Made by a program: the position numbers and the translations under genes
Part shown: one piece after another, positions 1,869 through 29,091 of the stretch
Layout: every line of letters starts with the position of its first letter
Position numbering within the stretch: the stretch's first letter is position 1
The notes under the pieces: generated by a model
Database searches by the model: none
Told to the model about the DNA's origin: nothing
Seen by the model: the letters and a program-made list of their open reading frames with translations, nothing else
Origin: Siphonodentalium dalli
Taxonomy: Eukaryota; Mollusca; Scaphopoda; Gadilida; Siphonodentaliidae
NCBI GenBank assembly: GCA_032622095.1
Contig: CP136068.1
Coordinates: forward strand, 124,005,989-124,069,988
DNA: 64,000 nucleotides
Direction: 5' to 3'

Positions 1869-2243
1869 ATGATTCAGATCTGGAAGCCGACAACAATAAG
1901 GTGTGTCATGTGGACACCTGGCATACTATCCAGAGTTGCCATAGGGTCATTCTGTCTAATACTATTAGTTGCATGTGTTTTCGGAGACGGCACCACTTCG
2001 TGGATCGGGAGTGCAAGGGGGCAGAGGAGTTGCAATACATGTGACAAATTAACAAGTATCGCCGCGAGATCTAAACTCGAATGCGTCGTTTTATGCTCAA
2101 CGTACACCGGGTGTAGGTCAGTGAACTTCAACAAGACAGTTGACGGGCCGCTACCATGCACCTTCTTTGCGTGCAGCCAAGCTAACCTAGATGGCGCTGC
2201 GCTGGAGTACACAGATGACGTCAGCTTTGTTGACATGATCAAG
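1869..2243 (+). CDS. Exon 1: signal peptide and PAN/apple-like Cys region
   Basis: 125 codons, ending AAG|GTGAGT in phase 0. The first in-frame ATG of the duplicated unit is 1869; the Met at 1908 (MWTPGILSRVAIGSFCLILL) gives a better signal peptide and is also kept in copy 2. Frame upstream of 1869 is open but not conserved in copy 2. Seven mature cysteines follow (SC, TC, EC, LC, GC, PC, AC) with the spacing LEC-x3-C-x5-C-x13-C, resembling PAN/apple modules that bind proteins or glycans. An exon of the same length lies at 42715-43089, with about 93 of 125 residues identical by my count. Confidence 0.75.
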
Positions 2244-5200
2244 GTGAGTCAAAACGTATGTAGTCAATTGCGGCTGTTCATTTTCCCCTTGTGATAATGA
2301 GCACAATCATAGAAAGCCTCTGTCAAAACATTGATCTATATGTTATGAATACACTCAGATGAATAATGTATGCTGCTTTACTTCGAAATGTGTACAAAAC
2401 GCTAATCGGTGGTTTTGAAAACCTAACATGCTTTGAAAAACTAGAATTATGGTTTTTGAAATTCGCCCTTAAAATGAAAAAATCCACACCCAATGCTTTC
2501 GTTTATGGGGAACTAGGAATATGCCCCATAACGGTGATAATCAAATCCTGTTCCCTCTCGTATTGGGCTAAGCTTATCTGCATGCCAACCAATAGATTGC
2601 CTCTTATTTTGTATTCTGTTATGTATTATTTATATTCTGATAATGTTTTAACAACCCACTGACTATTGGTGTACCGGACACCCTTAACTGCTTAGGTATG
2701 AGTAGTGTCTGGACCAACCAACACGCACCAAGCTTGAAAAGCTTCAATCGCACAACTACCGGTAAGCTACGTGACATATACATTCAAGAGTGGTGGTCAA
2801 CACTATCGAAATAAAGCAAATTCGCATTTTACCGGATTATAAAGTCAAATTTTGAACGAGATAATTACCTATCCCTTGATGATAACAGAGCAGTTAACAA
2901 TATTTGGACGAATACCGATTATTCCGACATAATTTGCACTCTCTGTAATATCGAATTCGGCGATGAATACCACATGGTACTGACGTGTAGCGAACTTAAT
3001 GAACTTAGAATAAAATACCTGAAACCCTACTACTACCAGAGACCGAACACTTACAAACTAGCCGCTCTTTTCAACTCCCGAAATCAAGAGACAGTTAAAA
3101 ATCTATCAGTGTTTATTAAGAAGGTCTTAGAAATATTCAGATCCGCCTGAGGCTTATTACCACCCCGCCTGGCACACTGAAACAACCGAATACGGTCCAA
3201 CTTTTCTATCTTCTATTATTATGCCATATATAATATATACATGTATACCTGTACTGAAATATATTGTATCTTATATCCATACATCTCTGTAATGTCTCAA
3301 CTTGACGATCAGAATAAACTAATTGATTGATTGATTGGACAGTACTAGTTTAGGAAGAAACTCACTACATGCATAGTTGCATAGAGTAAACAATCCAAAA
3401 CGAGAACATGCACATGTGAAACACCCCAAAATAATCCCGGTGTTTTCTCCAAACATTGGCAGTGTTGGTATGAAATTGGTATTATCTATATGAAGAATAA
3501 TCCACACTGCGAATGGTGTTCGTGTGGGTTGTGTTGTGTTTGGGTGAGTACCAGTTAAAGACATAGTATGTACTTGTTCGGGTGCGAGAAACTGGTAAGT
3601 TAGTATTCAGGTGCTGTGTCAACAGGAGGAACGTAGCATTCTAATAACATCACCGAAAATACAAGCAAATCGACCGTACCACTCAATAGAACACATTGTC
3701 TGAACTACGCTAAATTGTAAATATTTACTACTTGAAGCGGGACGCTTCTATCGGCGATAAACTAACGAAAACGATTTCACCATCGGCAGTCACTGCATTT
3801 AATTAATATATAAGAATGACGGTATGTGTTGTCAATTTAGATATAATATTTGTAAAAATAACCACTCTGAACAATATTATTCTCCAATTCTATTTTATCA
3901 CCATACCGGAGTGTTTCAATTTAAATCAAATGTTTTATATCAATCACTTTATGAGAGGTAACTCATAATAACATAGTACGTACATGGATTAAGGAGGCGC
4001 CACATCTCAATTTCAAACAATCAATTTGAAGGGAACAATCATCATCCTTTACATCCAATGTATGGTATAGTATTAAAACAACACGCGTCTATCCTCATGC
4101 TACGAGAGATAAGTTTGTTAAAATTATGTTAAAAAGTGGTTTGAACAAAAACAACAACCATTTTGTATGTAGGTCGATAGACAGTTTGAAGGAAATATTA
4201 AGAAAAGAAAAACACTCTGTATTATCTAGACTATGAACCTAGCTGGGGTACGCGCTTAGTCTACCATCTGAAATCATGACTGTCTGCGTGAAACTCAGAT
4301 AGTTTTCATTGCATATTTTATTATTTTTGGAAGCCATTTGCAGAAATATTGTTTTGAGAAAAAATCATAAAAACTACACAATGTCTGAAATGACGAGTCA
4401 ACATTGAGTGTTTATATCTGCCAGTTTATTGAAAATGTGGTTGAATAATATTTATGTTGTTTTATATTGTTTTGGTCGTTTATCCGATACAATATAGATC
4501 TACAAATGGCTGTAAACAAACTAAAATATGCAACGAATTTTTTTTATTTTTTTTTCTCGCAGACAGTTATGTTTGACGGTAGACTGAGCGCATAGCATAG
4601 TCGAGTTCATAGTCTAGATAATGCAGTGTGTTTTAACCACTTTTTGTTACATAATTCGAACATATCTCTCATATTGTGAGCGTAACAAGTGTTGGTATAA
4701 TAGCAGACATAGGTTATAAAGGATTTCAATTTTAATGTTTGAAATTTTGAGATGGTGGTTTGCCGCACATGGTCGACGAGTTTATCAGCCATTGAAATTA
4801 CTGTTAGATTAGCCATAAGTGTGCGACATTAAACCCCAATCAATTAATCAATCAATCAACAACAACATGATCGGTAACCGTTTTGTGAGGCTTGAATTCT
4901 CAATTGTGATTTGTTTTACATTGACGTTTTTCCACAAAATTTCGCCCATTCAAGAAACAATCCAATGCAATGTTTTGCGTCAACTTATTTATCAAACTGG
5001 TCATAAAGTGTATGTATATGTGAGATTCAATAGAAATCGGAGCATTGTTTTTGGGAGACATGTGCCAATGTATAGTATTATACCAATTCGACTTGGAATG
5101 TGTTATGGACCGCGCCACCATATCCACGAGCATGTGCTTACACATATCAATAACTTAATCATAAGTTGTCAATCCACTGAATACTCTAAAAACATTGGTT

Positions 5201-8200
5201 GTCACACATTTGGCCATTTAGGTTATTTATCGATAACCTAAATTTCGTGATTACTTTCCGGTATAGTAATGACATCAGCACCAAGTGATATGACCACGCC
5301 TATTTATACCATAATTCTAAAACTATTGTGTGTATGACACTTATTTTGCAAACGTCATCTTTACACCCTACTGTGGGTATATAGATTCATACTGTGGGTA
5401 TAAATTTATACTGTGTGTGTAAATATTTAAACGTAATGTCATGTGTTAAACGTATATTGCCATAGTAGAATTACATCGTAGTTAGCTAAATAGTTCCTTT
5501 GTCACATCGATGTAAAATCGGAAGTTGTCATGATATCAATTAGATATGAGGAAAATTGCCTGCATGTCAATCAAATGTGGCTTGCTAGTGTTATACGAAC
5601 AAGGAAACATATGAATGGTAATTCCAAGTGGCTGATCACTCAGAATCAGGCTGACGTCATGACGTAATTGTATGCATCCCTACTCGTGACGTACATTTCT
5701 TTTGCGTCGTGTTTGTGTCTCTTGGTGTGGACACACATTCAAATTAAACAGCGGAGTAGATGAATTCGCGGAACAAATCAAAAATAATAATTATGACATA
5801 AATAAAACACACGCACAGTAGCCGAGAGTACACAATTTTCAACCAAAAGGCTCGTGGATAAATCAACAATTCCACTATTTGTGAAAAATTTGTATTCTCG
5901 GCTTCTTTGTGTATATTGTATATTTATACCATAATTGCCTATTTTGTAAACTTCATCTTTACACACTACTGTTGGTATACAGCTTCCTACTGTGGTATAC
6001 ATTTATACTGTGTGTAAATGTTCAAACGTAATGTCATGTGTTAAACGTTTATAGCCATATTAGAACTATATCGTAGTTAGCAAAATGGTTCATATGTCAC
6101 ATTCATGTAAAATCGAAAGTTGTCATGATATCAATTAGATATGAGGAAAATTGACTGTGTTATAGATGACAACGTGCTATTTTTTAACATAATTCGTATG
6201 ACTGTGAAGTTAACTTAACATAAATTTTTTTAAACAACATAAATATCCAAAAAGCGCGATTTTCGAATCGAAAATCGTTTGTTGTGGTCGCGGAAAACAC
6301 ACCGGGACATATAATAACAGTATAAATTTATACGACAGTAGGAAGCTGTATACCAACAGTATGGTGTAAAGATGAACTTTACAAAATAGGTGTTATACAC
6401 ACAATAATATAGGCACAAAAATAGGAATTGTGGTTTTATCCATGAGTATTTTGGCTGAAAATTGTGTACTCTCGGCTGCTGTGTATTTTATTTATGTCAT
6501 AATTATTATTTTTGATTTGTTCCGCGAATTCAACTACTCCGCTGTTCACTTTGAATGTGTATCCACACTGATAGACACAACCACGACGCTATAAGGAATG
6601 TGCGTCACACGTAGGGATGCATACATTTACGTCATGACGTCAGCCTGTTTCTGAGCGATCAGTCACTTGGAATTACCATTCATATGTTTTCTAGTTCCTA
6701 TAACACTAGCAAGCCACATTTGATTGAAAAGCAGGCAATTTTCCTCATATCTAATTGATATCATGACAACTTCCAATTGTATATGAATGTGACATACCAA
6801 TAACCTTGGTTGGTTAGTGTGTACGTACCTGGAGAGATATACGAGACTCGACGTGTTAACATTTGTAAATAAATGTATTTGGAACTAACAATTCGTGTTA
6901 CAGCCGAACTATATCAGGAACACGCGCTGCTATGGTGGAGCGCACTGACCAGTGCGTGACAACTACCCAACCGCTAATCAAAAGTGATGAATTTATGACG
7001 CCATTTGATCAATCGCTAGTTAGATGTTTGATTGACACCGTGTCTGTTTCAACTTTATGTGTCTTTCGTCGAAGAATTTTTTTTACTCTCGTTTTACTTT
7101 TACCTAATAGTTAAGGTGGTTCTGATGTGAAATGACTGTTTAAATTATTGGAAATTACTCTTGATTCGAGGTTATTAGTTATAAACGACATTTGGAAGAC
7201 AGGTATACTACATGTGTACATACGTTATTCAATTTGTCTTAAAACTGTTCGGTTATAACTGGTATACCTTAATTGAAGCAAGAGTTATTTCTTAAATAGA
7301 GTACAAATGATATCACATGACATAACGTTTCTAGTTGACACATTGCTTGTGATTGGGTCGTTCTGTATAAACTTGATGAACATACAATACATTTAACCTA
7401 ATTTATTAGCTACCTGTAGTTGCGAGAATCGGGAACCAAAAGAAATCGAGGGGGGTTTAGTTAAATGTGTCGTTGTTAGTTTATCTGCTAATGCCGTGGT
7501 AACGAGATTACAGGTTGTCATACATGTATACTGCATAATTGTGTCATGGGACCCGGAAATATTTAAGGTATATTGAATACGGTCACTTATCTGACAGGTG
7601 GCTTAATCAATGTTATAGTTACAGATATGCAAGTCTTGACCATTTATTTACCAAATACGTATTGACGAAAATATCCAGATAATACGTTCAACAGACAGGT
7701 GTTGAACTTAATACCTCAATGATTCCCACTAATAAAAACGAATCCTGCTGTATGTTTGTCTGTATATCGTCTGTGTATATACTTCCTCAACATCTATCCC
7801 GATAAATGTACTCTTGTACAATTCAATGTGGATATATACTCAGTGAATAAAGGGTTAATTTAAATCACAATTTGCAGAACGATGACTACTGCTGGAATGG
7901 CCAACCTCAAGGAGCAGACAAGTGTGAATGTGGACCGGGGTTTGTTGGATCATGCTGTCAGCAGCCACCACCAGGTAAGAATGACATACATGTTATCACG
8001 CTGACACCAACATATTATCATACAAATATATTCATATTTGACCTAAAAATTCACATAGGTTTCCATTGGAATTATTTGATTCAGAGATAAGCCTGTTGTG
8101 GACTTATACTAGTTATGCCGTTGGATGGCGCCGGCCACAGTGAAAACACGTTACAAAGATCGCAAATATCGCAAGTCACGAATTGGTTTATTCGTGTTGG

Positions 8201-11200: not shown

Positions 11201-14200
11201 ATTATTGGTCGCGGATCCTGGAAATGCAGTTGTGTTATAAATACAGGGTGTGGCCGAACTGTAAAGGAAGAGTTATGTCCCCTGCTGAGCTGCCCTGATC
11301 GCTGACATCACGTGCACAGCATGTGAGGAAATCACACTTTGTTATTTAAGGCTTTTATCGGTTACACTTCATTCTGCATTATTCTGAGAAACCTAACTGT
11401 CCATTCATTTTAAAATTGGCTAGATAAAGTCAGAATGATTTCTAACTGACAAAATACTTAACTAAACAAATTAGATTTAATTACGAAAATATATATGATG
11501 GCAGTGGTCAGACCAGCGTAGCGATTGGGACTGAATTATGCAATCCAGATCAATATACATAAGTGTGTACTGATCGGCATTTGAATTGTATGAATTTGTT
11601 TAGGTCCTTTCGAAAGCATGACATTTTGTTAGATGCGAGGGCATATACATGTACATTTTTTTGATCACCTCGACATGTATTGCCATTAGAGATGCGCACT
11701 TCTTTTCAATGTATATATTTATTTATTTTTCTTATACACTTTAGCGAATATCTAGTTTGCAATAACATTTTCATAATTTGTCATGCCATGTATTATCCCA
11801 GGTACCATCTGTTGCAGGACTAAAGTACGGTGATTATTGTTGGTTAATGTGCCAGGCTGACAAAACACAATGCAATGCGACATCAGCAACTTGTGATTGT
11901 GATCAATACTTCGAGTTTGTCGGTGATCCACTTGGAACATGCAGTGCAAGTGAGTAACTTGTATATTCCGAGACAAACATACATGCGTTGATTTGTGTAC
12001 ATGGCATACCCAGTAACATACCAAAATTATACTAATCATAGTAGTGGATGTATCCGGCGTTGTACGAGTAAACTAATCGAATGAGTATCTGCATCTTTAA
12101 ACGAAGCTTTTGGTGCCAATGTGCCATAGTTGGATATGAAGGACCTGCATGTCGCCTGTTAAAGAATAATGAATTTGGACAATTTACACCCAAGTCAAAA
12201 ATACCAGTATGGTAGACCCATATAAAATCACGTGGCGCACACAGGCTGTTTGATTATCCAAGACGTACGTCAGGTCATGTGACATAGAAGCAGAAGTTGG
12301 AATAAAACCGATACGTCGGACCAGACCGGGGCTTATGTAACTGGTCCGGCTTTTTGGTCAAGGGTGGGACATGTACTCGTTCCATCCCTGTTTTTGATCG
12401 TACGATTCTTGAAGGGACCGAATAGCCCGACAACTGACTTCCAGGCGATATATCTAACTTCCTTGTTCTTATGTGTGTGCTGTAGTATTCTTGATACATA
12501 TATTTGATTCAATACATATTGTGATCACTTAAACTGTGTCCGAAACCAGCGTTAGACAACGTACAATCAACAAGTTACGACCTACTATGGGACACAAATC
12601 GGAGAAATTGATACCATATTTGTTGTGACTGTTAAAGTGGCGCGAAACACTCCGCGGATGTGTTACGAACGGAATGAGACACACACATGCCAATATAAAA
12701 TTATTTGATATCCAAATAGTCATAAAACAGCTTCATTATTACAAACTAAGTATACGCAGTGACAATTATTGTCGCAATCATTGCTGTAATGTTTATGCCG
12801 AGTAAAGTAGTAAATATTAACATCTGTGCGTAGTTCAAACGTTGCGTTCGCTGAACTGTTACAGTCGATTTGGTTGGAACTTTCGACAATCTAAGTTCAT
12901 TGCTACATTCTTCCAATGAGGATAGTGTTCATATACTAACTGATTAGTTGTATTCAATGATATAAGTACATAATATGTCCTTAAGACATAACGGCTACAG
13001 TTAGAACGTACTCATATTTTGATGAGATCCTGCACATAATTGCATTACGTTGTACCCTAAACAGAATCTTAACTCTATCCATATGTTTTGTGAAACCTCC
13101 CTATCTCACTGGACATAACACTTTACGACGACTAATAACTAAACGTAGTGGTACGGTGGCTGCCAACAGTAGATTTGCGAAACCACACTATTACTCAGAT
13201 GTTGCATTGCAAACCTTATATTGTAGTCGTTGGCGCCGCACACGGAGCCGTGTGTTACCAGCTATGTTCGGCATACGGGACAGAATGCGACCTGGCACTG
13301 CACACGTGCCAATGTAAACAGTACCACAAGACGTCTACCGCTGTCCTTGGAACATGTGATTCGAGTAAGTTAATGCGTGCAGACATTAGACAACCACCGA
13401 ACTACTGCTGAAATGAATTGCAATTAGGGCATTATGTCACTGTAATTTGTGTTTTTTCAATCAGTTGAGGTCGTTTATCTGGTCCTCACTGTGGGAGTTG
13501 ACTCTGACTCAACACTATTGAGATATGTGATACCCACAGAACCTAACCCCTCCTAATTTATAAATTACCTAAATCGTTGTCCAGATGTGGTCGCCCTAAC
13601 ATTTATGTCTCCAAAGTCTGTATTCGCATCAACATACAAAGAAAGGGATTGTATTATTATTCCGCTTGTATTGGTTTTTCGTTCCGCTCTATAAACTGTT
13701 GGGTTAAAATGGCCAATCGATCGGTTAATTGCAACTTTTCGGGAACTCAGCTAAGACCGCTGTTTCTCGGGTTATTCATTCTAAACTATATACCACGATA
13801 TACAACATTCTAGCATTCATTTATGCAATGCAAACAACATCTAAGGATACGAATCCATTTCCGCTTGCTGCGCTTTGCACCCACTTAAAAAACAATCAAC
13901 GTCTTGTTATGTAATTGATGGGTATATATAATTGTAACTGGCCGAACAAGATGCTGTATTGTATAATGATGGGAAGTTGTTTAGCCACTTATACGCCCAT
14001 AGTATAACGTCAACAAAAAAGACATATATTGCTTATAATTGCGCCACCGGACCATATAGAGGAGTATTCAGTTCGAACTTTTATTGGCCGATTTCCCCTA
14101 CGACGACACGGCGTGATAAATGAGGTTCAAGTCCGCTCATATCAAGCTGGACAACATGAAATTGACGCGGAGGAAAATCGAACAAGTATGTCATTAAAAT

Positions 14201-17200
14201 CACTTTGCGAATTTTTGAAATATAAATTATATACAATATGAATGTGACATAGAACCACCTGATGCATTGGCATTCTGCGATTTGATGTTATAATATCGAA
14301 TTTTAAATTACGACTGATTATCAGAAAGCTATTATATAACCATCCGGTTATTACAGGGGACGCAAGTTATGATCCCAGAAATGTTATATCGTCGCCATGT
14401 TTTACTTTGAATAGAACACACTCCGATTCCCTGAGCAATGATCGGTAAACAAGCACACACATCAAACATTTCAAGTAAATACGCCCCGGGAAAATCGGCT
14501 TCTACGTCGATGAATCGGCCACTTCCATCTTTATACAAAAATACAAACAAGAAACCAGGGCGTTAATGGGACTTGTCCAATCAGAATTGAGGAAATTAAA
14601 GAGAAGAACATAGGCGTGATAATAATATGAATCGAGAACATCGCGTTATATCAGTAAAATCATGCCAAATCATTACATGTTATATTTCATGTTGTTTCTT
14701 TTGCAGCTCCAAACTTCGACATCTCGGCAAGAGGATTTCAAGTATACGTCTACAGAAACGGCGTGGTAAATATTTGATATAAACATATTTTTATTAGTAA
14801 TTATACATAAATAATACATTACATATAAGGGATCGGAGGACAAGTTCTGTGAAACTTAGATGGACCTCCGCTCCCTACAGATTATACATGAAACATAAAT
14901 ATAAAAATTTATTTTGGATTTATATCAGGTTTTGGTGGGACGGGTAGAATATATATATATTGAGTGCGTGAGTATAACGGATATTTTACATGGGGTGTTA
15001 ACTATTATAAATCGGTGGTGTGGTGGGGGGTAACGAGTATAAGTATACACACATATGACTAGTATGACAACTGGCAGCATATATATGTATATGGTGGGGG
15101 AAAGCGTTAGTAGGTGTGTTTGGGAAATGGTAAATAGGAAGGGGTAGTTTGAGTAAGTAATAGAACGGGGTATTGGGGCAGCCAATTATGGTACAGAGTT
15201 CCGATTTTGTGAGTCTACAGGAGCTCATTCGTTGCACGTCGCAAATCGTCCGGAAGATTTTATGAATTTTAAAGCTGTATCTGTTAGAATGCAATTTTCG
15301 TTGGCGGTTAAAGTTATATCTCCTTTTAGAAGCGCTTCATAGGACGCGACTCGAAAGGATCACATAGCATGTGACCATTCTATGCGTTGTTGTGAATAAA
15401 GGGTGCAATACATGAAAAGGCGTTCTGCATCTTCCACAGGGCTTCCACAAGTACACGTCGGGTTATCACCAATGTGGTTTTCGACTTTGTCATGGTTCAG
15501 ATTACTACACTTATTTCTAATTCGACAGTGTATAATATTTGTTTGTCGGCCACCGAGATATACATGAGATGAATTTTTTCTCTTGGGGAGAATTGTTGAT
15601 TTGAAAGCCTCGTAAAATTTTAGTTTTATGTCGTTTGCCACGCAGTTCCAAACTTCGATTGTTTTCGGAAAGAAAGATTTCTTGAAGGTTTCTAGATGAC
15701 AAAAGTAGTTCTCAAAACCATCCGCGTTGCGCAAAAAGTAACGACTCGTATCACCGACACGAGGTATGAGAAGATCGGATAAAAATTGGGGGGCTTTACG
15801 ATTGACAATTTTGTGCATAAGACATAATTTGTGTGCATCTTGACGAATCTGAAGGGGTTTCCATCCAAGTTCGTTAAGTAAATTGGCGTTCGACGAGGAT
15901 CTAGTTAGGCCAAAAACAACTCGTGCTACAGTTTGTCTAGTGTAAATTTTGTGATGGCAGAGACCCAGACACAACATCCAAATTCTAGTATGGGCAATAA
16001 ATGTGTTTTGAACAGTGTGTCGAGGGTCTTTCGTGGTAACATATACTTTAATTTTCGGAGTTGTGAAAGCACAGTGCAGGCATTCTTATAGATGTGTTCT
16101 ATGGCAAGGTCCCATTGAAGATTGGATTGCAGAACGATTCCGAGATGACAGTGATCTTCGACTATTTCGAGTTTGTTGGAACAGAATATGAGGTCTGCAC
16201 TGCGCGGGAATGTTGATTGGTGGCCTTGAAATATCATTGCTTTCGTTTTTGATGAGTTAAGGGAAACCAACCATGTGCTAGTCCAACTATCAAGGGATTG
16301 AAGGTTGTTATTTATATGAAACACCAGATCTTCGAAAGATTGTAGTGAATAGAATATACATGTGTCATTTGCAAATAGGCGAACATTTGACTTAAGATTG
16401 TCTCCAATGTCATTTGTGAATATTGAGAACAAAAAGGGACCAAGAATATACCCCTGGGGAACCCCAGAGGCTGGTTGTAAGGGATGTGGATACTCCGATC
16501 CAACAAGCACTCGTTGAGATATATTGCTGATATAGTCAGTTATCCAGAAGAGTAATTTGCCGTCAACGCCATAACTATGTATTTTATGAATTAGTCCTTT
16601 ATGCCAAACCCGCTCAAACGCTTTAGAGATATCACAGAATACACCTATGGATGACATCGACTCACTCTTAGTTTTATTAGGCAGTGTATTATTTCTAGTA
16701 ATTGGTGGTGGAATCCGGATAGGTATTTGTACAAAAGGTTGTTCTTCGAAAAATAATCGTACATTTTCTGAAAAACGATCTGTTCAAGAACTTTGCTCAC
16801 ACATGAAAGAAGTGATATTGGCCGGTAATTACATGGGTCTGTTTTCTCGCCTTTCTTGAAGATTGGTAAATATGAATATATGATTCATATATAAGCAGTA
16901 ATAGATCTATCCACATCTATCGATAAAAAATTATTAGCAGATATATTCTACCACTCGGCGGCTAATCATGAGCGGGCCATTTGCTGCATTGAAAATTCTG
17001 ATGCCAGCATTGATCACACTAATGTTTATATAATATTACGTGCATACCTTCAAATTTTTCCACTTATGTTGTTATCAGATCATATTCAGTGGTATGTTTG
17101 ATGATTGCATGCAAGGTTCGCGTGTCTTGCTTGGCATCTCGATGACGTAATCGTAACTGCGAATATGACAAAACGACAACTGATAGAAAGAACACAATAT

Positions 17201-20200
17201 CTAATGACGTGGTACCTTATTCGTAATTATCATCAGTAGTAGTGCTGTGTGCTAAAGGATAGGATATTTTATTTCAATACACATACATATTACATAATAA
17301 TGATAACTAATTATGGATAATTATGTCGTATATTGTGGGGGATGGCATAATCTGGCAAGACTGTCTTCCTGCCATCCATCCCCAGTATGGTAAATATAGA
17401 AAGTAATAACTTATTGTAAGATGGCATTGGGTGAGCCGTGTACATATTGTGTATATGTAATTTATGAGTTTAGGGCTTAGTTTAAGATTGTGTGAAAATG
17501 GATACTACCCGAGGGATGTTCAATACCATGTATAAGACCATCTGCACCAAGAAAACAAATCTTCAAACATAGATGTAATTTGTTCTGACATGTATGTTCA
17601 TTGTAAATAATGTTTGGAAAATGACTTTTCGCCATTTGAAACAATTTGTATGTGATCATTAAATGTTTCAGTTAACGACATTTTATCCAGTGTGGTCCCG
17701 TGTGGCTCATTTTGTTTTTGCATTTAAGTACGAAAACAATGTACGATCTAGTGTATTCTTGTAGAATTAAGTAATGCATATATCCGAGCAGAGGATAATG
17801 GCCATATATATAGTAACAGCCATGCTCCACCAACTACATGTACGACTGGTTTGTGGATTCATCAAATGCAATTGAAATTTAAAAGTATTGGTTGAAAATC
17901 GGTGTGTTGCATGACATCTTGCAATGATCTTGACCTTTACTAAAGTATACCTTCAAGATCTGATAAAATTTTTATAAAGTGTTATTGGATATTGGATAAA
18001 ATGTCGTTAAACTGAAACATTAATGATCACATACAAATTGTTTCAAATGGCGAAAAGTCATTATCCAAACATTATTTACAATGAACATATATGTCAGAAC
18101 AAATTACATCTATGTTTGAAGATTTGTTTTCTTGGTGCAGAGGGTCTTATATACGTCTATGATTGTGCACATGTACACAGAGTGATATACCAAGAAGTAT
18201 GTATTGTCGTCATAATCAGTGATACGCGGATTGTGCTTTTATATCATTTGCACGTATTTGTAGTGAATACGTTAGATATTCAAGGCTGTCAGTGGTCTGC
18301 TGATTTTCTTTCTTGATGAAAATTATTCCGATTATTCCAGTCTGTCTTGGTACAGCATATCCAATAACAAACATAACCAAGAAAATCTAAACACGGACCA
18401 TGTGTTCAACGAATTCCTAATGCTACTTTGTAGTCGTTAATTTTGAGATTCTGGAGACTATTTCTGTTTACTATTTCTGTTTACTATTTCTGTTTACTAT
18501 TTCTGTTTACTGCTTTTGGAAGATTTATCACTAAACAAAAGTAACAACATTAACTTGGAACACGATCCATTTTAAACGTTTTCAAAATATAACGTTGGAA
18601 CCATTACTATTGTGATTCTGGAGAATATGTATAGTTCCTAATATAAACATACTTAATAACTAAGTGTATCGAAACAATGCGCATTTTAAAAACGACTTCC
18701 AAATTTAAACTTGAAATCATAAAATAATCTATTGAGTTTAAAGGCACGTGAGGCCTTAGTTGTCGAAAATATTCATATTTGTTCCAATCACCGTAAACAG
18801 AAAAACATTAAAACGCATAGTTTCGTTCATATATACCATGACCATCACGTAAACAGCATGTTATCATAAAGACCTACTATATTTTACCTAAGCAAGAGCC
18901 TGATTGTGTTACAGAAGACAGCACAATTCTACTGGCTAATCACACACAAATGGCATAAATGCTCTTTATTAGTTCCATATCAGGAATTCACCAACAAAGA
19001 ACGCTCTTTATGTTTACCATCATAATATAAACAAACACCAGAAAAGTAACTTTTTATGCTTTTGTTTACATAACAATTGTCAAATATATGACAATAACAT
19101 ACTGTTTATGCGATATTTCTTATTTGTATACGGACAAAGTCTGTCTACATTTTGATGTTCTTTCTGTTTGTGGCGGTTTTTGACGGGTGGAAATATTTTC
19201 ACAGGATACCCACCGCCAAGGCCAACCGTACCTTTAAGATTCTACCGTATATGTACGTGTAAACATCTTGATCGAGGAAAAATTGTTTTACATGCAACCC
19301 CAATAACTCGATCAGAAATGAGTAATTAATATTGAATCTACTAAATCTGGATATATCTACATGTGTATGACACCGTAACTAAATTACTACATACTCAATA
19401 TATCAACTACATTACAATCCATTTTGTTCAGTCAGAAATCATATATATGCAATAAAGATGACAATGTGTAATATTTTGAAAAGATATCTTGAAATACTTG
19501 TCGCTATTTTTATTGCGTAATATACATAATTATAGGCCCTTGTGTACGTTATATCGGTCCAAAATTGGGCGCCGCGCTTTGCAATGGGAGAACAACTGCT
19601 TCTGATGAATGTATGTCTCTGTATGTTAGACTTTGATTCTACTTCATTATGTGGCCTTTAAGAAGAAACCCTACTCTTACTACACCATACTCTTACTCTT
19701 CACAGTGGCAAGGCGCTCCAGCGCGTGGAGTGGGTATCTACGAATTTGATCAGACTACGGTGAGTACTTGAGGTTTATCTCCAGTTTCAAAGGAAGAGAT
19801 CATTGATATGATTTTCTTTTCTTTCATTCATGTATATTCAAATGATCTCAATATACCGCAAGCTTAGACATTTATATACTAAATATTTATTGACGAGTAG
19901 TTCCCTTAGGAAATGTTCAAATAATAAGTTCAGGTCGTTTGTTGAACCTATTATATGAACATTTCCCACCAATTAATATGAATGATTCTGTTCTAGTATT
20001 ATCTATTTTTCTCTCTGTCACCTGATCATCACTCTAACTGGATAATAGACCGTTCCAATGTACGTTTTATAACTTCATGGGATAATCCATTCAGTATATA
20101 AGGATTAAACAAGAAAACTAAGATGCATGCATCAGGTCGGCCGTGAACTATCTACCATAGAATTGTTGTAGCTATCGATTATACATTTTGGAACACCTGT

Positions 20201-23200: not shown

Positions 23201-26200
23201 CAACTGTTAACATATTTGGGCTGAATTCATCTGACGCGGTATTATTCCTCAAAATAAACAACAAAACCATCGTTACTTGGAAATGTAGTTTGGGCTAACA
23301 TTTACATAAATCCTCCATATCATTATTCCGACACACACGTCAGATGAAAAAGTCACATGAAGTAACCGGCCAAATTGGCCGAAATGACAATGCAGTGTCC
23401 ACTCCGACTGACATGGTTGTATAATATATATTGACAAAAGCTCAGACCTTTACTTCCCAGTACCACAAATTACATGTTACTCTGAATGTATTGTCTCACA
23501 TAACGCCTTGGAAGTAATCCCTATCACACCATGTTGCCGTTTACCTAACTGTGTAGAAACATATGCATGTATTCCATAGCCATTGTTGCTGTTACGATGG
23601 TACATATAGGAAACGAACGGCGGTTACAATTTATTTGAGATTTTGAAATCGATAGTTTCCTGAATTTATAATACGGTCAATGGCCACGCTGGGTCCACCG
23701 TTTATTTAATTGTATTATCTTGTATTCTACATTGGCTAATGCAATCGTGGTGACTACATAAGCAATTTATATACGGGTCGATCATGTTCGGCAATCAAGT
23801 GATTTCCCAAGATTATGCCGTTATATTTATTATTTATTATTGGTCATATTTTTATGGACCAATTGGTTAAATAGGCGCTAACGCCATAAAACAACCAGAA
23901 GCTGTATCAGGTGTAAATATAATCATAAAATTTGAGAAAAGTTATGATAGGCACTTGTATGACTATTATGAATACTGCATGTACTATCAACTACATATCT
24001 TTATCATACACATTTCCGCACTACGACCACGAATTTATACATTGTGTATAGCGACACATTTCGCATAATACACTACTTATGATAAGAATTACGAATTACG
24101 TCACTAGAATATGTGTTCTTTACATCAGTTGTCGCTTTTCCATAAACCCGTAGTTACGATTACAGTTTCGAGAAGCGACGCATGGACACGCGAACTTTAT
24201 GTGCAACCATCGAGCCTACCAATAACTATGGTCTGATAACAACATAAATAATTACAAAATAAATATGGCACATAGAACCACATCACCTTACTTCGAGTGG
24301 CAAGAATATTAAATGGCACTATTTGTTCATAAACGGACTCGTAGTCGTGAATTCTGCGACAAGGCTTTTGGACCGTCCGCAAATTGTACGACTACTATTC
24401 GTTATTTGTAATTCTTATCACTAGTAGTAGTAGTTTATACTATGTGAAAGGTGTCCACTGTTACATGGAGTCGTAGTATTTTGGAATATATATGTAAACG
24501 AACAAAGGACTATTCAGTTCATCGGTGGGCGATTGATATTAGCGGCGAGTTAGTGCACCATGCACCAACTAATAATCTACAGATATTATAGCGACGTATT
24601 TAGACAGGCTTCTCAGTGTACCGACGGTTCCGGACCTATCGGTACCGGGACGGTTCCGCGTGTGGTACCGCGGTACCAGTACTGAAAGTCTCAATTGATA
24701 ATATTGTGTGTGGCGAGCTATATACACACTGTGCCAGGTAAGAAATATAGGTTTATAACGGCTGGAAGTAGATAACAATGTGCATTTAGAAGAATTTAAA
24801 TAATGAATTTCGCCAATCGATTGACCAATCAGTTATTTTCAATATAACAAAACACTTCAAAACAAGCATATCAAGCAGATACATATAACACCACGCAAAT
24901 TGAAGTTGGCAATTTGCCGCTTGAACGCGTCTTTGAACAATGATTGTAACGTCCCATCTTACAAAGAGGCATCACTAACTGATCGCTTTGTTTTAGAGAG
25001 GTAAACTGTAAAGCCGACGAGTCGATAAAACATGCGTGATTTGAATTAAGGTGACTGTAAAACATATTGTGATCGAATGGGCGTCGATGACGCAGTCGCC
25101 ATCAATGTAACTGATTTTATACCCAAATTGGTTAAAAGCAACGTCATTCCTATGTACGAGTATGATATGTAGCGAAGATTCAATATAGTTGGCGGGTCAT
25201 GTCAGTAGACTCAGTACTCTGCAAGCTTTTCTACTTTTGGTATGCATGTATGTACAAAGCGGTTGAAACAGCTTCCTCAGCGATCGAATATAATTAATTA
25301 TGAACCGTTTATATTCACGAACACAGGTTAACTTACTTAAAATTGTGCATGTGGATTCCGATTTTAATAAATAAAAATACAATGATATAATACTGAAGCT
25401 GTCTGTATTGACCACTAATTTAAATTATTTCACCATAAAAGAAAAATAAACACAAAACAATCATTCCAATCGAGCTACGAGGACAAGTGCATGTCATTTG
25501 CGGATTGATCGTTTGATGTCGTTGAAATTCGATTGAAGTTTAGAAATATACATGACATATCCATATCAACATTGATTCAGCTGCAATTACGACACGTGAC
25601 GTCAGTCGTGGTCACGTGCACCGTGACTTGTTGCTCAGTCAGAGATTGGTAATTTGTAATTGTCTTTTATGTTTAGGTCACAGTATGTGTATGTTCTGTA
25701 CTCATATAAGTGTTTAGGTCACAGTATGAGTATGTTTCTATACTCTTAGAAGTGTTTAGGTCACAGTATGTGTATGTTTCTATACTCTTAGAAGTGTTTA
25801 GGTCACAGTATGTGTATGTTTATATACTCTTAGAAGTGTTTAGGTCACAGTATGAGTATGTTTCTATACTCATAGAAGCGTCGCTAATTGGTCACTTTGG
25901 GTTGAGGATACCGTGGCACCCGATGATATAAGCATACGATATTGGTAATTTAAATTATCCAATTTCGCGACAATATAAGTACGGCTACCGGCATATCGTA
26001 TTGCCTTCCGTATTGCCTTCCGTTTTGGTCCGGGGAAGTTGTAAATCGCGTTTGCTGCTATGCGATTATTGTCACCATATGTATACAATCACACTTTATT
26101 TAGCAATAACAAACGGTGATTCAAATTTGGTTCTGGCAGCGCTGCAAATAACATCTAGATCAAGTTATCGATAACATATACAACCGTATATAGACTACTA

Positions 26201-29091
26201 ATTCGAGTATCACCTAGTACCGTGTACCGCGATACTCAACACTCAGTACCGGTACCGTGAAAGTTGTCTAAGTACCGACGGTTCCGGTACCGGTACTGGT
26301 ACCGTTGAGAAGCCTGATTCAAGTCTCAGAGTAAATATTAATTGTAACTATACCCGTCATTGTCATGTGTATGGAGATCAATATACAGTTTATTTTAATA
26401 GCACTATATATCGTTCACAATGACCTATTGGAGCGTATTTACTGTTTACGGAGGCATGTGCAAAATGCGTATATAAATAGTTAATTGTTGTTCCTACGTG
26501 ATTCCCTGACTACAACAAAAGGCGTGCAAAACTTTATTTTTGGTCGACTTAAATAAATGGTGATTACACATGGACATACCTTTTCAGGGAGATCGCGTGA
26601 GCTTCGCAACATTTGACACATTCTCTGCGGTACGCTATGACGCGATCGTCGCATTCTGTGACGCGATACAGACTGGCAACTACGTCTTCTTCATTACAAA
26701 GGTTCGTTTGCTTTATCGTAATATCATGTTCCTCATCACGACGACTGCCATCACCAACACAACCATCACCATCATCGCATCCACAGCCATCACCATCATA
26801 ATCACCACTTCCACCACAAACATCACGATCACCATCACCACAACCATCGCCACCATCACTCCACAACCTTTACCAACACAATAATAACCATAGTCACCAC
26901 CACAACCATCACGACCCTCACTACCACACACATCATCACCATCGGCTCACAACCATCACCGTCATCATCACCATCGACAACACAATAATCTCAATCACAC
27001 GGGAACATGGTTGGAGGGTCTCCGTAACGTTGGTGGTGTTAACAATTGAATTCACAAAACGGCACCCGCCCCTTGTACCAGGTCAATGTCCCAAGTTCGC
27101 ATAATTCCATTTGGACCTCTTGGCTTGGGATTTCCTAATCGGTACCTCATATGTCCCCTTATTGTATTTTGAATTGACCAGCCACCACAACCAAAGAGGA
27201 AGTAAAGGCAACTTCAAGAACAACAATACATTTTAATGTGTCTTTTTCATTCTGACAAAATTGTTCAACCACCCTTATCACCCATGTTTGCTCCCAACCA
27301 CCCTTATATAATCCAAAACAAATCGAATGACATAATTATATTCTAATTGACATACATGTAATAATAAATTTAGACATTAACGTTGACAGCATTACGCTAA
27401 TCTCTTGCGTCACTGCGATTGCCGATAATAAATGTGTAATAATATTAGGCCGGGTTTTGGGGCTAATCATGTGATACATGATATATCCTGTATATGCACG
27501 TACATGCGTTCTGTGTGCACCTGTTATGTATATAATGCGTATATACCATGTGTGGTTTTGATTATTCCATATGTATACTGTTGCTTTGCAATACATTATT
27601 TCATTGTAAAACTTTTCTCAAAACCATTGATCTGCGTTTGCATTCCTTCCCTGCAACAATTACATGTGGTTTTCACTTCAATTCAGGACGAACCAAACAA
27701 TCGAATGGGAACTCCTACAAAGGATTTTTTTAACAGCACATATTCTAGCAACTTGATCTACACCTTAGCTTACAGAAGTGTCTGGGGCATGGTCGTCCAA
27801 AAAGGAGGTAAGATGTTTGATAGTGAGTTTCTTTGGCATGGTCGTACAAAAGAGATGTACGATATTTGATGATGTATCCAGTATCATAATGTACAAACAT
27901 GGACATTTGGTATCGCCATTGTTGGACACGAAACGGTACAAATCGCTTAGTTTAAAAGATTTAGACAATTTTGATATTATTTTCGCGTAAACGTTCACAG
28001 AACTACATGTAATCATGGAAACCAATGGACATTTCCACAACTGTCAATCAAGATATTTTTTACCAATCAGCGACTGAGTCGGTCGCTTGTTGTTTTAAAA
28101 TGCTTTAGTTATCACGATTTTTATATTCGGAAAGGATTTCAGTGTTAAATGTCCAATTTTCAAGCAAGTCAAATCATAGTTTACTGAATTGTTGCGTTGA
28201 TGATAGAAATAAATCTACGATTATATAACCAGGGTCCACCCATGGGGGCACAATATTTGATTTGACCAAATATTTAGTCAAAATGAAAATAACATTTGCC
28301 AAATGTTTTTAGAAGTTGCCAACATGCTGTCAGTTTCTGCAACATTGATTCTTATATTTCGACAACAGTTGTTTGATAAAATGTTGATATCGATAGAAAG
28401 AAGTTAGTTATTAATAATTCTCGCGTCTCTACTTTTCTGTCAGATTAACTGCATCTTGATACAATTCAATTCAATTTCAATTTAGTTAATATTCTCATCG
28501 TATGGTAATAAACATCGAGAAGAAAGGTTTTAGAATTCACAATATTATGTATTGTATATATTTATAATATATCACAATTTTCTATATGAATAAAACAGAT
28601 CGGTGTATATCCGCAACCATGCATGTATACAATAGTAGATACTATCAGGTGTGAGGGGGTTGAGTCATGTGTTGTTAGGCATCAGGGGTGGTTTATCTAA
28701 CATATGTTAAAACCGGTGTTAACTGTTCGTAACTTTATAAAACATCACTATTAAAATTACTGAGTTTCATGGAATGAATGTCTCAATACTCATGTTGTAT
28801 TGTGAGTGGAGAGATTGATCGGTAGTGATTGACCGATATGATCTATTGGGGAATTAAAAAGTGACCGGCCAACTAGTGCAACTGGTGCACTTGCCTTGTC
28901 ACATAGCATCCGTAAGATGCCTGATTACTCTTTATATACATTTTTCAGAAGCAGAACCACATTGCGAGACTTTAAAGAGAAAACAGGCTGGACAGAGCTA
29001 CCCAGATAGATTGATCATGGAGTGGGAACTAAGAGTTGTAGCCGGCGTGGCGACTCTGGAATTCTGCACTTTTACATACGAAGTTGTATGA
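1869..29091 (+). CDS. Nine-exon secreted protein: PAN-like + EGF/EB-like + ILEI domain
   Basis: Joining the nine exons gives 1233 nt (410 aa plus TGA) with every splice phase matching: 0, 1, 1, 1, 0, 0, 0, 1. The order is signal peptide (about 14-40, if translation starts at the inner Met), PAN/apple-like Cys region (54-110), EGF-like segment (126-158), two six-Cys modules (158-201, 202-248), ILEI-like domain (about 250-364) and a 46-residue tail with two Cys. ILEI hallmarks seen are ARGVGIYEFDQTTG, TFDTF, FITKDE and YRSVWGMVVQKG, which match the RG-(x)-FDT-DE-(Y/F)R-x-x-W-x-x-x-x-x-KG pattern of FAM3/PANDER domains. The protein is probably extracellular; binding partner and function are unknown. 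ATTAAA follows the stop. The assembly is by eye, so extra small exons cannot be excluded. Confidence 0.78.
2685..3340 (+). mobile_element. Non-LTR retrotransposon 3' fragment
   Basis: The + frame from about 2686 reads LNCLGMSSVW, then LRDIYIQEWW, one in-frame TAA, FYRIIKSNFERDNYLS, the zinc-knuckle-like CTLCNIEFGDEYHMVLTC, and ends VLEIFRSA-stop at about 3150. This is the C-terminal end of a LINE polyprotein. The minus-strand LINE at 47372-50219 carries the same module (CTLCNQGKVGDELRYLIEC). The copy is 5'-truncated and finishes with a TTGATTGATTGATTG tail near 3336. It lies inside intron 1 of the main gene. Confidence 0.75.
3341..4220. other. Intron 1 stretch without recognised features
   Basis: No coding homology, element ends or tandem array recognised. 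The open frames here are short and lack splice context. Confidence 0.45.
4221..4622. mobile_element. Foldback MITE with ~64-bp inverted arms
   Basis: The left end ATTATCTAGACTATGAAC is mirrored by GTTCATAGTCTAGATAAT at the right end. The arms continue imperfectly through CGCTTAGTCTACC / GGTAGACTGAGCG to TGACTGTCTGCG / CGCAGACAGTTA. The spacer is about 270 bp and non-coding. The superfamily is not assigned, since no convincing target duplication was seen. Confidence 0.6.
4812..4860 (+). repeat. CAATCA-type tail
   Basis: GTGTGCGACATTAAACCCCA is followed by ATCAATTAATCAATCAATCA. This is the same tail type as at 55-128. It starts about 190 bp after the right arm of the 4221-4622 foldback. Confidence 0.4.
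5300..6795. mobile_element. Complex foldback element with direct and inverted repeats
   Basis: Large inverted arms span about 5500-6015 and 6317-6795. The segment AGTTGTCATGATATCAATTA at 5523 is mirrored near 6750-6770, and the GCATCCCTAC / GTAGGGATGC, GCGGAGTAG / CTACTCCGC and GAGAGTACACAATTTTC / GAAAATTGTGTACTCTC pairs lie within the arms. In addition a ~250-bp direct repeat (about 5300-5570 and 5917-6155) lies partly in the left arm and spacer. It has no coding capacity and lies in intron 1. It is probably a MITE that underwent internal duplication. Confidence 0.65.
6796..7877. other. End of intron 1, no recognised features
   Basis: About 1.1 kb with no recognised repeat or coding homology. 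The last bases form the AATTTGCAG acceptor of exon 2. Confidence 0.45.
7878..7974 (+). CDS. Exon 2: EGF-like segment
   Basis: The acceptor is TTTGCAG and the donor CCAG|GTAAGA; the exon enters in phase 0 and leaves one base of a Gly codon. It encodes 32 residues containing DDYCWNGQPQ and KCECGPGFVGSCCQ, a classic C-x-C-x-x-G-(F/Y)-x-G-x-C EGF-like end. It is shorter than a full six-Cys EGF domain, so either it pairs with cysteines of exon 1 or exon 3, or part of the domain is missing. Reading past the donor enters the intron and is not coding. Confidence 0.7.
8482..8548. repeat. 67-nt near-perfect palindrome, copy 1a
   Basis: It starts CCAATGCATTCTCTTATATA, ends with the exact complement, and has a short centre around CGACCATAGGTAG. 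It can form a stem of about 26 bp plus an inner stem. Confidence 0.75.
8630..8696. repeat. 67-nt near-perfect palindrome, copy 1b (inverted)
   Basis: Reverse complement of copy 1a except around the centre (GGCGACCTATGGTCGA), lying 81 bp downstream. Confidence 0.75.
8728..9406. other. Intron 2 stretch, no recognised gene
   Basis: It contains a CAATCAACCAATCAATCAATG run (about 9292-9312), another CAATCA-type repeat, just before a LINE fragment. Otherwise nothing is recognised. Confidence 0.4.
9407..10235 (+). mobile_element. Non-LTR retrotransposon fragment (RT thumb and C-terminus)
   Basis: The first frame reads QWCANRLSLHDNKTRYIMF, then VKFLGIEMDENLSYNAHI and KVANANFAFKKVKQLS, the region following the catalytic YADD of LINE reverse transcriptases. 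A frameshift near 9920-9970 moves to a second frame with YIYKLGISLFMLDCRNDRLP, AIWNDLNRKL and FRRTFISECI, ending at 10235. The catalytic core is absent, so the copy is 5'-truncated and dead. It resembles Jockey/CR1-type C-termini; the clade is uncertain. It lies in intron 2. Confidence 0.75.
10236..10639. other. Intron 2 stretch, nothing recognised
   Basis: May include the 3'UTR of the preceding LINE fragment. No clear poly-A or microsatellite tail marks its end. Confidence 0.35.
10640..10893 (+). repeat. Probable retroelement 3'UTR with TCTC tail
   Basis: A CCTCCCCAGGCAAGGAGCAC / GTCTGG / CCCAGATGGG stretch, then an AT-rich end with GTCAATAAATCA and a (TC)n-rich tail at about 10870-10893. 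Terminal simple repeats are usual for CR1-like LINE 3' ends. No coding sequence remains. Confidence 0.35.
10894..11817. other. End of intron 2, nothing recognised
   Basis: Only short unsupported frames. The intron ends in CTGTTGCAG, the acceptor of exon 3. An AG 16 bases earlier (11800-11801) would give an in-frame stop and is rejected. Confidence 0.45.
11818..11949 (+). CDS. Exon 3: six-Cys EGF/EB-like module 1
   Basis: Symmetric phase 1-1 exon with acceptor TTGCAG and donor GCAA|GTGAGT. It encodes GLKYGDYCWLMCQAD, TQCNATSATCDCDQYFEF and GDPLGTCSA. The pattern C-x3-C-x7-C-x6-C-x-C-x12-C matches exon 4, so exons 3 and 4 are an internal duplication. Phase 1-1 exons are the usual class of shuffled extracellular modules. 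It resembles EB/EGF-like domains. Confidence 0.72.
12084..12170 (+). pseudogene. Possible relict EGF-like exon
   Basis: The + frame reads SFWCQCAIVGYEGPACRLLK, a C-x-C-x3-GYEGPAC EGF-like end, between exons 3 and 4. No acceptor AG with a pyrimidine tract precedes it in frame and no GT donor is obvious, so it does not join the transcript as read. It could be a decayed third copy of the module in exons 3/4 or of exon 2. Confidence 0.3.
12171..13226. other. Intron 3, nothing further recognised
   Basis: Contains a GGACCAGACCGGGGC / GTCCGGC stretch near 12318-12350 without a defined unit. No other coding or repeat signal. Confidence 0.4.
13227..13364 (+). CDS. Exon 4: six-Cys EGF/EB-like module 2
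   Basis: Phase 1-1 exon; acceptor ATTGTAG, donor TCGA|GTAAGT. It encodes VGAAHGAVCYQLCSAYGTEC and LALHTCQCKQYHKTS, then VLGTCDSS. The cysteine order and the closing LGTC match exon 3 (PLGTCSA). Such modules sit between adhesive N- and C-terminal domains in many secreted invertebrate proteins. Confidence 0.72.
13365..14706. other. Intron 4, nothing recognised
   Basis: Gene-free 1.3 kb. Open frames near 13577, 14029 and 14332 show no family resemblance, codon bias or splice context. Confidence 0.45.
14707..14765 (+). CDS. Exon 5: start of ILEI-like domain
   Basis: Enters in phase 1 (completing a Thr codon) after TTTTGCAG and ends GTG|GTAAAT in phase 0. It encodes PNFDISARGFQVYVYRNGV, matching the N-terminal strand pattern of ILEI/PANDER domains (I-x-S-x-GF ... 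I-x-VNG). With 59 nt it is one of the smallest exons; its placement rests on phase and on continuity of the domain with exons 6-8. Confidence 0.65.
14785..16905 (-). mobile_element. Degenerate non-LTR retrotransposon (RT to C-terminus)
   Basis: Minus-strand frames give PIFKKGEKTDPCNYRPISLL (about 16870-16810), FCDISKAFERVWHKGL (motif A), SGVPQGYILGPFLFSIFTND (motif B) and the motif C equivalent RLFANDTCIF, where the usual (F/Y)ADD has become FAND. A second frame (15977-15360) holds the C-terminus with TKFTLDKL/ARVVFGLTRSSSNANLLNELGW, WNCVANDIKLKFYEAFKS and CTCGSPVEDAERLFMYC. Frameshifts lie near 16660 and 15950. It is 5'-truncated. The 3'UTR probably reaches about 14785. Jockey/CR1-like; inserted antisense in intron 5. 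Confidence 0.82.
16906..17530. other. Intron 5 stretch, possible LINE 3'UTR debris
   Basis: A GC-containing block near 17335-17400 (GGGGGATGGCATAATCTGGC ... CCATCCATCCCC) lies next to an AT-rich run, resembling a retroelement 3' end in minus orientation. Not assigned. Confidence 0.3.
17531..18151. mobile_element. Foldback MITE with 158-bp inverted arms
   Basis: Arms 17531-17688 and 17994-18151 are near-perfect inverted repeats (TATAAGACC ... TTTTATCC and its complement) around a 305-bp spacer. Both arms encode the same open frame (ITYKLFQMAKSH...), but this is simply the mirrored repeat. TATA at the outermost ends suggests a TA target, as for Tc1/mariner-type MITEs (inference). Confidence 0.65.
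18458..18511 (+). repeat. 13-bp minisatellite, about 4 copies
   Basis: Unit ACTATTTCTGTTT repeated perfectly four times in intron 5. Confidence 0.85.
18738..19237 (-). mobile_element. Non-autonomous TTAA-flanked element, copy B (inverted)
   Basis: Starts TTAAAGGCACGTGAGGCC and ends CCGTACCTTTAA. It is the inverted copy of 170-671 with few differences, so the two insertions are fairly recent or similarly old. It lies in intron 5. Confidence 0.65.
19238..19705. other. End of intron 5, nothing recognised
   Basis: AT-rich; ends CTTACTCTTCACAG, the acceptor of exon 6. Confidence 0.4.
19706..19759 (+). CDS. Exon 6: ILEI-like domain, second part
   Basis: Phase 0-0 exon of 54 nt encoding WQGAPARGVGIYEFDQTT, with a pyrimidine-rich acceptor and donor ACG|GTGAGT. 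The RG followed by a hydrophobic strand and a D-x-x-TG turn (the Gly comes from exon 7) is the hallmark RGxxVxxxDxxTG block of ILEI domains. Short but well supported by both neighbours. Confidence 0.7.
19909..19966. repeat. 58-nt hairpin repeat
   Basis: GGAAATGTTCAAATAATAAG is mirrored by CTATTATATGAACATTTCC around a GGTCGTTT loop. A related hairpin at 60817-60888 lies in inverted orientation, with the shared flank GACGAGTAGTT. Confidence 0.6.
19967..20458. other. Intron 6 stretch with weak TATG/TGTG run
   Basis: A short GTATGTATGTGTGTATGCAT-like run sits near 20203-20240. Otherwise nothing recognised. Confidence 0.35.
20459..20790 (+). repeat. Degenerate ~127-bp tandem repeat, about 2.7 copies
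   Basis: Each unit begins GGGTCAAAT-x-x-TGA-CC, then GACCTGA...TTGACATTCAAAA, TCAATTCAAGGTCAAATC, and ends with ACTTTTGTCC...GGAGTGTTT. The three units are diverged. Non-coding. Confidence 0.65.
20940..22380 (+). repeat. Diverged dispersed repeat units
   Basis: The blocks near 21014-21160 and 22170-22310 share GGAAAG-TGAA-T-CTA-GTAATACT, the CTGGCGAC segment and GATAGCTC-CATCT. A partial third unit lies at about 21345-21400. They look like old copies of one repeat. The open frames in this stretch are not supported as genes. Confidence 0.4.
22389..22695 (+). repeat. Two tandem copies of a ~170-bp AT-rich 3'-end-like unit
   Basis: Starts at 22389 and 22559, sharing TTTTTATGTTCACTTTATAA, CACTGAGTCATCTTTGTCAT and the CATAAAT block. 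The first unit ends ATTAAATAAAGTTGAATTCC, a polyadenylation-like retroelement end. Confidence 0.65.
22696..24604. other. Intron 6 stretch, nothing recognised
   Basis: Only a local doublet TTTTATTCCGAGTTGGC near 22874-22908. No coding homology or element ends. Confidence 0.4.
24605..26316. mobile_element. Non-autonomous hAT-like element
   Basis: Inverted ends CAGGCTTCTCA and TGAGAAGCCTG, each followed inwards by GGTACC/CCGGTACCGG-rich palindromic subterminal sequence (24620-24690 and 26215-26305). CAGG ends with such subterminal palindromes fit hAT elements. A clean 8-bp target duplication was not seen. No transposase frame; it contains the 42-bp minisatellite at 25671-25879. In intron 6. Confidence 0.6.
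25671..25879 (+). repeat. 42-bp minisatellite, 5 copies
   Basis: Unit GTTTAGGTCACAGTATGTGT plus a TATGTTTCTATACTC-TTAGAAGT half, at 25671, 25712, 25754, 25796 and 25838. Because 42 is divisible by 3 it keeps an open frame repeating a 14-residue unit, which is incidental. Confidence 0.85.
26588..26701 (+). CDS. Exon 7: ILEI-like domain, FDT segment
   Basis: Phase 0-0 exon of 38 codons after CTTTTTCAG-type sequence (CCTTTTCAG), with donor AAG|GTTCGT, weaker than the other donors. It encodes GDRVSFATFDTFSAVRYDAI and AFCDAIQTGNYVFFITK. The FDT-F and the buried strand followed by DE at the start of exon 8 are the ILEI core (x-FDT ... G-x-x-V-x-x-x-x-x-DE). Without this exon the domain lacks its centre; with it the domain is continuous. 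Downstream lies an ACC/ATC-rich simple repeat. Confidence 0.72.
26728..26990 (+). repeat. Degenerate ACC/ATC low-complexity repeat
   Basis: CACCATCACC-type triplets with many variants, open in several frames on both strands. Intronic. Confidence 0.85.
26991..27686. other. End of intron 7, nothing recognised
   Basis: Contains a repeated CCACCCTTAT near 27270-27308. The intron ends CTTCAATTCAG. Confidence 0.4.
27687..27807 (+). CDS. Exon 8: end of ILEI-like domain
   Basis: Enters in phase 0, leaves one base (GGAG|GTAAGA). It encodes DEPNNRMGTPTKDFFNSTYS, then SNLIYTLAYRSVWGMVVQKG. The last part matches the ILEI C-terminal signature (S-x-x-I-x-x-L-x-(F/Y)R-x-x-W-x-x-(V/I)-x-x-KG). One N-x-T sequon (NST) is present. 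The strongest single piece of evidence for the domain call. Confidence 0.75.
27808..28239. other. Intron 8 first part, nothing recognised
   Basis: A short local similarity to the end of exon 8 (GGCATGGTCGT-CAAAA at 27836) looks like a tiny duplication. Not spliced as read. Confidence 0.35.
28240..28880 (+). mobile_element. Degraded hAT-like element related to 34142-34703
   Basis: Shares with the 34-kb element the runs TTTGCCAAATG, GATATCGATAGAAAG-AGTTAGTTA, TTAACTGCATCTTGATA, ACTTTATAAAACA-CACTA and TGATTGACC-ATAT. The right end with the terminal inverted repeat is missing. Lies in intron 8, 70 bp before exon 9. Confidence 0.45.
28949..29091 (+). CDS. Exon 9: C-terminal tail and stop
   Basis: After TACATTTTTCAG; the first two bases complete a Glu codon. 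It encodes AEPHCETLKRKQAGQSYPDR, LIMEWELRVVAGVATLEFC and TFTYEVV-stop (TGA 29089-29091). Two cysteines may pair with each other. No domain recognised beyond the ILEI part. ATTAAA begins 8 bases after the stop. Confidence 0.68.

Follow-up and report, generated by a model that had tools for sequence, protein, structure and literature searches.

A clustered PAN-ILEI gene family in Siphonodentalium dalli as a possible secreted recognition family

We describe a gene from the scaphopod Siphonodentalium dalli that joins a PAN-like domain and Cys-rich segments to a C-terminal ILEI domain, and that is a member of a clustered family with at least nine loci carrying exons 1-4 and 7-9. The reading we favor, with belief and doubt about evenly balanced, is that the PAN-ILEI genes encode a secreted, lectin-like recognition family, in which a conserved scaffold carries a diversifying rim of a putative binding site. 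The term window denotes the whole stretch of 64,000 nucleotides analyzed here (contig CP136068.1), and coordinates in nucleotides refer to it.

Gene model and domain content

The initial annotation had proposed that nine short exons spread over 27 kb form a 410-codon frame, and this model held up. When spliced, the exons at 1869-29091 on the plus strand give one continuous frame of 410 codons followed by a stop codon. All introns are GT-AG, the phases fit (entry phases of exons 2-9: 0,1,1,1,0,0,0,1) and the length agrees. Exon 1 (1869..2243) contains the start codon, a long signal-peptide-like N-terminus (aa 1-39) and a PAN-like domain with Cys at positions 55, 58, 72, 76, 82, 97 and 102; its donor is gtgagt. 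Exon 2 (7878..7974) encodes a short Cys segment (C130, C141, C143, C151, C152), which is EGF-like by motif only. It is followed by six-Cys module 1 in exon 3 (11818..11949; paralogues 81-98% identical) and six-Cys module 2 in exon 4 (13227..13364). With 36% identity between these two exons, the doubled module that had been noted before is real. Strand 1 of the ILEI/FAM3-type domain (PNFDISARGFQVYVYRNGV) was assigned by inspection to exon 5 (14707..14765), which is identical in the 103.7 Mb copy described below. The domain continues through exons 6 (19706..19759), 7 (26588..26701) and 8 (27687..27807), and exon 9 (28949..29091) encodes the C-terminal domain part with the Cys pair C369/C403 and the stop codon. 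All nine exons are on the plus strand.

Two alternatives to this model were discarded. An acceptor of exon 3 at 11802, paired with an exon 2 donor at 7973, was rejected because this donor is not GT; with a proper GT donor the same acceptor is out of frame, and acceptor 11818 and donor 7974 fit together. We also omitted a further exon at 19541 since exons 5 and 6 already join in phase.

Residues 23-37 are hydrophobic, precede a Gly-Asp and resemble a signal peptide by their hydropathy peak and by inspection. The hydropathy analysis found no second hydrophobic stretch of comparable strength in the 410-aa protein. This signal sequence makes secretion of the protein most likely. The splice sites, the frame and the recurrence across loci exceed chance; this is a real multidomain gene.

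ILEI (PF15711) is the single domain over the Pfam cut-off in the 410-aa protein. The match covers aa 274-363 (model positions 1-89 of 90) with 47.8 bits versus a cut-off of 27 and an E value of 2.2e-12. The HMM search suggested by the initial annotation thus bore out its ILEI call and found the domain where exons 5-8 had been expected to hold it. The ILEI part is confined to about aa 248-410, and exons 1-4 encode other domains. Among proteins of solved structure, the closest in sequence are the POMGNT1 stem (5ggj; E 4.8e-5) and FAM3A/FAM3B (E 1.6e-4 to 2e-4). A profile of four family members searched against the PDB matched the POMGNT1 stem (7.1e-8) and FAM3A/B (7.6e-8), and also TMEM2 and FAM3C, in agreement with the FAM3 and POMGNT1/TMEM2 proteins named earlier as ILEI relatives.

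The assignment of exon 1 as PAN-like stands at the level of the family, where all nine exon-1 paralogues match PAN_1 (best E 1.5e-7); taken singly, the window copy falls below the cut-off (17.1 bits versus 21.4; E 0.0049). In a genome-wide PAN_1 search, exon 1 of the members at 106.71 and 107.35 Mb was above the cut-off. This domain is very numerous in the genome: scoring 150 of 1852 candidates gave at least 147 exon matches. A profile search of the PDB returned no PAN/apple structure for exon 1 (best E 4). For the PAN exon, a structure prediction that had only the other window copy as companion sequence reached a pLDDT of 32 and was unusable. Exons 2, 3 and 4 gave no match to Pfam models at E<=10, EGF and EB included. 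The EB and EGF names proposed for these exons are therefore unsupported, and the label is a motif reading only. A partial literature search did not find a published description of a protein with PAN and ILEI domains, which may be annotated elsewhere.

Other elements in the window include a reverse transcriptase ORF (RVT_1) at 15926-16657 (minus strand), within the intron that separates exons 5 and 6, and a second one at 47994-49411 (minus strand). Directly downstream of the PAN-ILEI gene, the region 30002-30932 (minus strand) is probably a Crypton-like recombinase remnant. Two ORFs overlap there, both matching DUF3504 (one below threshold), and one ORF also has a sub-threshold match to a phage integrase. 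Tandem arrays occupy 34894-35735 (58-bp unit, 14.5 copies) and 37423-39050 (368-bp unit, 4.5 copies). On impression the repeats have a molluscan look; a search for haemocyanin gave no match, which does not mean that the gene is absent.

Paralogues on two chromosomes

We searched the genome (2.23 Gb in nine contigs) for family members. The exon queries produced 102 matches and a query with ILEI only produced 75. Nine loci on two chromosomes have exons 1, 2, 3, 4, 7, 8 and 9, each locus with the exon order unchanged and all exons on a single strand. On C8 these are the window gene and the loci at 103.68, 106.23 (minus strand), 106.26 and 106.39 Mb; on C5 they are at 251.99, 251.88 and 253.62 Mb (all on the minus strand) and at 253.66 Mb. 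At a tenth locus (C8 107.35 Mb) exon 3 alone was undetected. The genome-wide exon search could not pick up exons as short as 5 and 6, and short stretches around three further members did not reveal their exon 6.

The gene structure is well conserved. Splice positions and phase of exon 8 are identical in about 15 loci; those of exons 6, 7 and 9 are kept in distant paralogues, where read, and the exon 1 donor is kept in intact copies. In distant paralogues the exons are about 80-91% identical, and the introns align at about 72-76%. The copy at C8 103.68 Mb, which is 20 Mb away from the window gene, retains all nine exons, the splice sites and the frame without an indel. It differs from the window gene by 3 synonymous and 9 nonsynonymous changes in 1233 coding nucleotides and by about 2-3% in the introns. 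This copy could have arisen by recent duplication or could represent an unmerged haplotype.

A second, intact copy of exon 1 is located in the window at 42715..43089 (plus strand; 74% aa identity), with no later exons found in the window or in the next 9 kb. Its counterpart at C8:103.72 Mb is followed by later exons at 103.76-103.78 Mb. Other copies are broken. The third exon-1 copy in the window is a 5' fragment (42492..42587, plus strand) interrupted by a stop codon, exon 1 at C8:106.575 Mb has a stop codon and a frameshift, and exon 1 is truncated at C8:123.9996 Mb and C5:148.376 Mb. No ILEI exon was detected near the loci with PAN and Cys modules at C8:103.72, C5:148.38, C5:92.86 and C8:124.00 Mb (the last on the minus strand); these loci may be truncated or may end in another domain.

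The broken exon-1 copies would be expected if the family consisted of partly decaying duplicates, in which relaxed constraint and gene conversion raise omega without any adaptive change. The splice sites and frames kept in the intact copies, where read, argue against such a decay, and further evidence on it comes from the selection analysis below.

Predicted sugar contacts and selection in the ILEI domain

In the POMGnT1 stem, the residues R129, D179 and R207 contact beta-linked GlcNAc (PMC9802357). GlcNAc is also bound by FAM3A, FAM3C and Fam3L2 of C. elegans FAMP-1; Fam3L1 of FAMP-1, in which the D and the second R are missing, shows no such binding (PMC9802357). An alignment relative to the PDB entry places R274 (exon 6), D324 and R353 (both exon 8) of the window gene on R129, D179 and R207. 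The equivalent chain positions in 5ggj are 43, 93 and 121; their spacings of 50 and 28 are the same as in POMGnT1, and the residue numbering is therefore checked.

The Asp and the second Arg occur likewise at 103.68, 106.6 and 107.7 Mb, as well as at three other ILEI loci (C5 24.28, C5 24.60 and C8 10.18 Mb). In about ten other copies of exon 8 they are replaced by Asn and by Ala, Gly or Met, respectively. The two residues change together, and no exon-8 copy read shows just one of the two replacements. The Arg in exon 6 that is equivalent to R274 is kept in four further loci, and one exon 6 of the Asn group retains it. For the window gene, glycan binding is a fair prediction from the aligned residues; the same prediction is unwarranted for the Asn group. 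Sugar binding cannot be general in the family because most members are without two of the three contact residues.

The PAN and ILEI parts of these genes differ in their constraint. Across five gene pairs pN/pS was 0.14 for the PAN exon versus 0.83 for ILEI exons 7+8 (Fisher p 0.003; 0.0006 without the window pair). Codon models were run with our own program and not with PAML, using GY94, F3x4 and a FastTree topology and leaving gene conversion out. Under M0, omega was 0.476 for ILEI and 0.185 for the PAN exon; the latter is under purifying selection and gave no sign of positive selection in the comparison of M2a with M1a (2dlnL 0.06). For ILEI the same comparison favored M2a (2dlnL 28.1), with a posterior of 1.00 for codons 328 and 329 and of 0.89 for codon 288. 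The signal was retained without the 106.6 copy (2dlnL 27.8), in the Asn group alone (17.5) and in exon 8 with 16 sequences (34.7), and it was weak in the Asp/Arg group alone (2dlnL 6.1, p 0.048). None of 53 simulations under M1a reached the observed value; their maximum was 3.8.

Codons 328-329 (27699-27704, plus strand) are located within exon 8, and their residues follow D324 by four and five positions. By this distance in the sequence they appear to adjoin the predicted sugar pocket. A constrained PAN domain together with an ILEI domain that changes beside a predicted contact is the pattern of a recognition protein with its binding specificity under tuning.

Codon models can mistake gene conversion and multi-base mutations among tandem paralogues for positive selection, and at codons 328-329 several of the changes involve two or more bases of a codon. 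That these codons change by several bases together, and that pN/pS of ILEI averages near 1, would again be consistent with decaying duplicates. Decay is nevertheless the least probable explanation considered here: the PAN exon in the same genes has its low omega, many ILEI codons are invariant within pairs, M1a, which permits neutral sites, is rejected, and the signal does not depend on the 106.6 copy.

Gamete and secretion proteins, too, typically show positive selection and tandem duplication. The PAN-ILEI proteins could accordingly be reproductive or structural glycoproteins, with roles in gamete recognition, egg coat, mucus, adhesive or shell matrix, and the variable residues would then track mating or material needs instead of immunity. 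The abundance of PAN domains in this genome fits such a role. The evidence presented here favors no particular tissue, and we consider this explanation unlikely.

Relation to known ILEI proteins and to recognition families

By sequence the closest solved relative of the PAN-ILEI protein is the POMGnT1 stem (PDB 5ggj). Both belong to the same ILEI fold family, and all three GlcNAc-contact residues of the stem are conserved in the window gene. In POMGnT1, however, the stem is connected to a Golgi glycosyltransferase, whereas the window protein has no catalytic domain and instead carries N-terminal PAN and Cys-rich domains behind a secretion-like signal. FAMP-1 of C. elegans and the tandem FAM3-like proteins of amphioxus are likewise multidomain proteins with FAM3-like domains. 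The split within FAMP-1, in which Fam3L2 keeps the triad and Fam3L1 lost D and R (PMC9802357), is the same as that between the two PAN-ILEI branches. FAMP-1 differs by its GNT-I-like C-terminus. Pfam gave no match to a GNT-I domain in the 410-aa protein, and the PAN-ILEI protein is not of the POMGnT1/FAMP-1 type. Separate genes of the latter type are present in this genome on C1: an uninterrupted 859-aa frame at C1:56.14 Mb (484-3060 of the stretch read) is FAMP-1-like, with two ILEI domains and GNT-I, and is closest to POMGNT1 and FAM3C. Another uninterrupted frame, of 842 aa at C1:56.75 Mb, has two ILEI matches.

The FAM3 proteins (FAM3A/B/C, including ILEI and PANDER) resemble the window protein in that the ILEI domain is part of a secreted protein. 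This likeness, together with the finding that human FAM3C restores thermotaxis in C. elegans (PMC9802357), would suit a FAM3-like secreted signal, in which ILEI engages a receptor protein, with localization left to the PAN and Cys-rich parts; the fast change at two sites is compatible with co-evolution with a receptor. However, FAM3 proteins are single-domain, whereas the window protein adds four modules to the ILEI domain and comes from a clustered multigene family; it is thus outside the strict FAM3 family. Moreover, the sugar-contact residues are retained here and the change adjoins them, and an expanded, diversifying family fits recognition better than one ligand-receptor pair. We therefore regard the signaling explanation as improbable, about to the same degree as a reproductive or structural role. 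Recognition and signaling are both putative functions, and extracellular recognition fits better than signaling.

Expanded recognition families of invertebrates of the FREP type are secreted and clustered, and they combine a conserved part with a diversifying binding domain. The PAN-ILEI family is similarly clustered and probably secreted, and has a conserved part and a diversifying domain. It differs in having PAN and ILEI in place of fibrinogen or immunoglobulin domains.

In the recognition mechanism that we propose, the conserved N-terminal PAN domain and the Cys-rich spacers would present the C-terminal ILEI domain, which may serve as a small recognition module of a lectin-like type. The window copy would hold a GlcNAc-type sugar through its POMGnT1-like triad, and repeated selected change of the two residues just past the contact Asp would tune the ligand. 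In the second branch, the replacement of Asp by Asn and of Arg by Ala, Gly or Met points, in our reading, to a new ligand and not to lost binding, because the PAN exons of this branch stay strongly constrained. The window protein would bind a sugar, and the family may serve in non-self or other recognition. The full version of this proposal, an invertebrate recognition repertoire on the ILEI fold with a PAN scaffold, a lectin rim diversifying at 328-329 and an Asn branch with another ligand, is more tentative than recognition as such, and we lean somewhat against it.

These results bear on the question of whether ILEI/FAM3 domains are cytokines or sugar-binding modules. Branches that keep or lose the sugar contacts, with selection beside the site, amount to a natural experiment in which binding is directly comparable. 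Because PAN is joined to ILEI and the selected residues lie beside a predicted sugar site, the PAN-ILEI genes are possibly a new secreted recognition family. If this is true, ILEI would be a further domain among the recognition repertoires of invertebrates.
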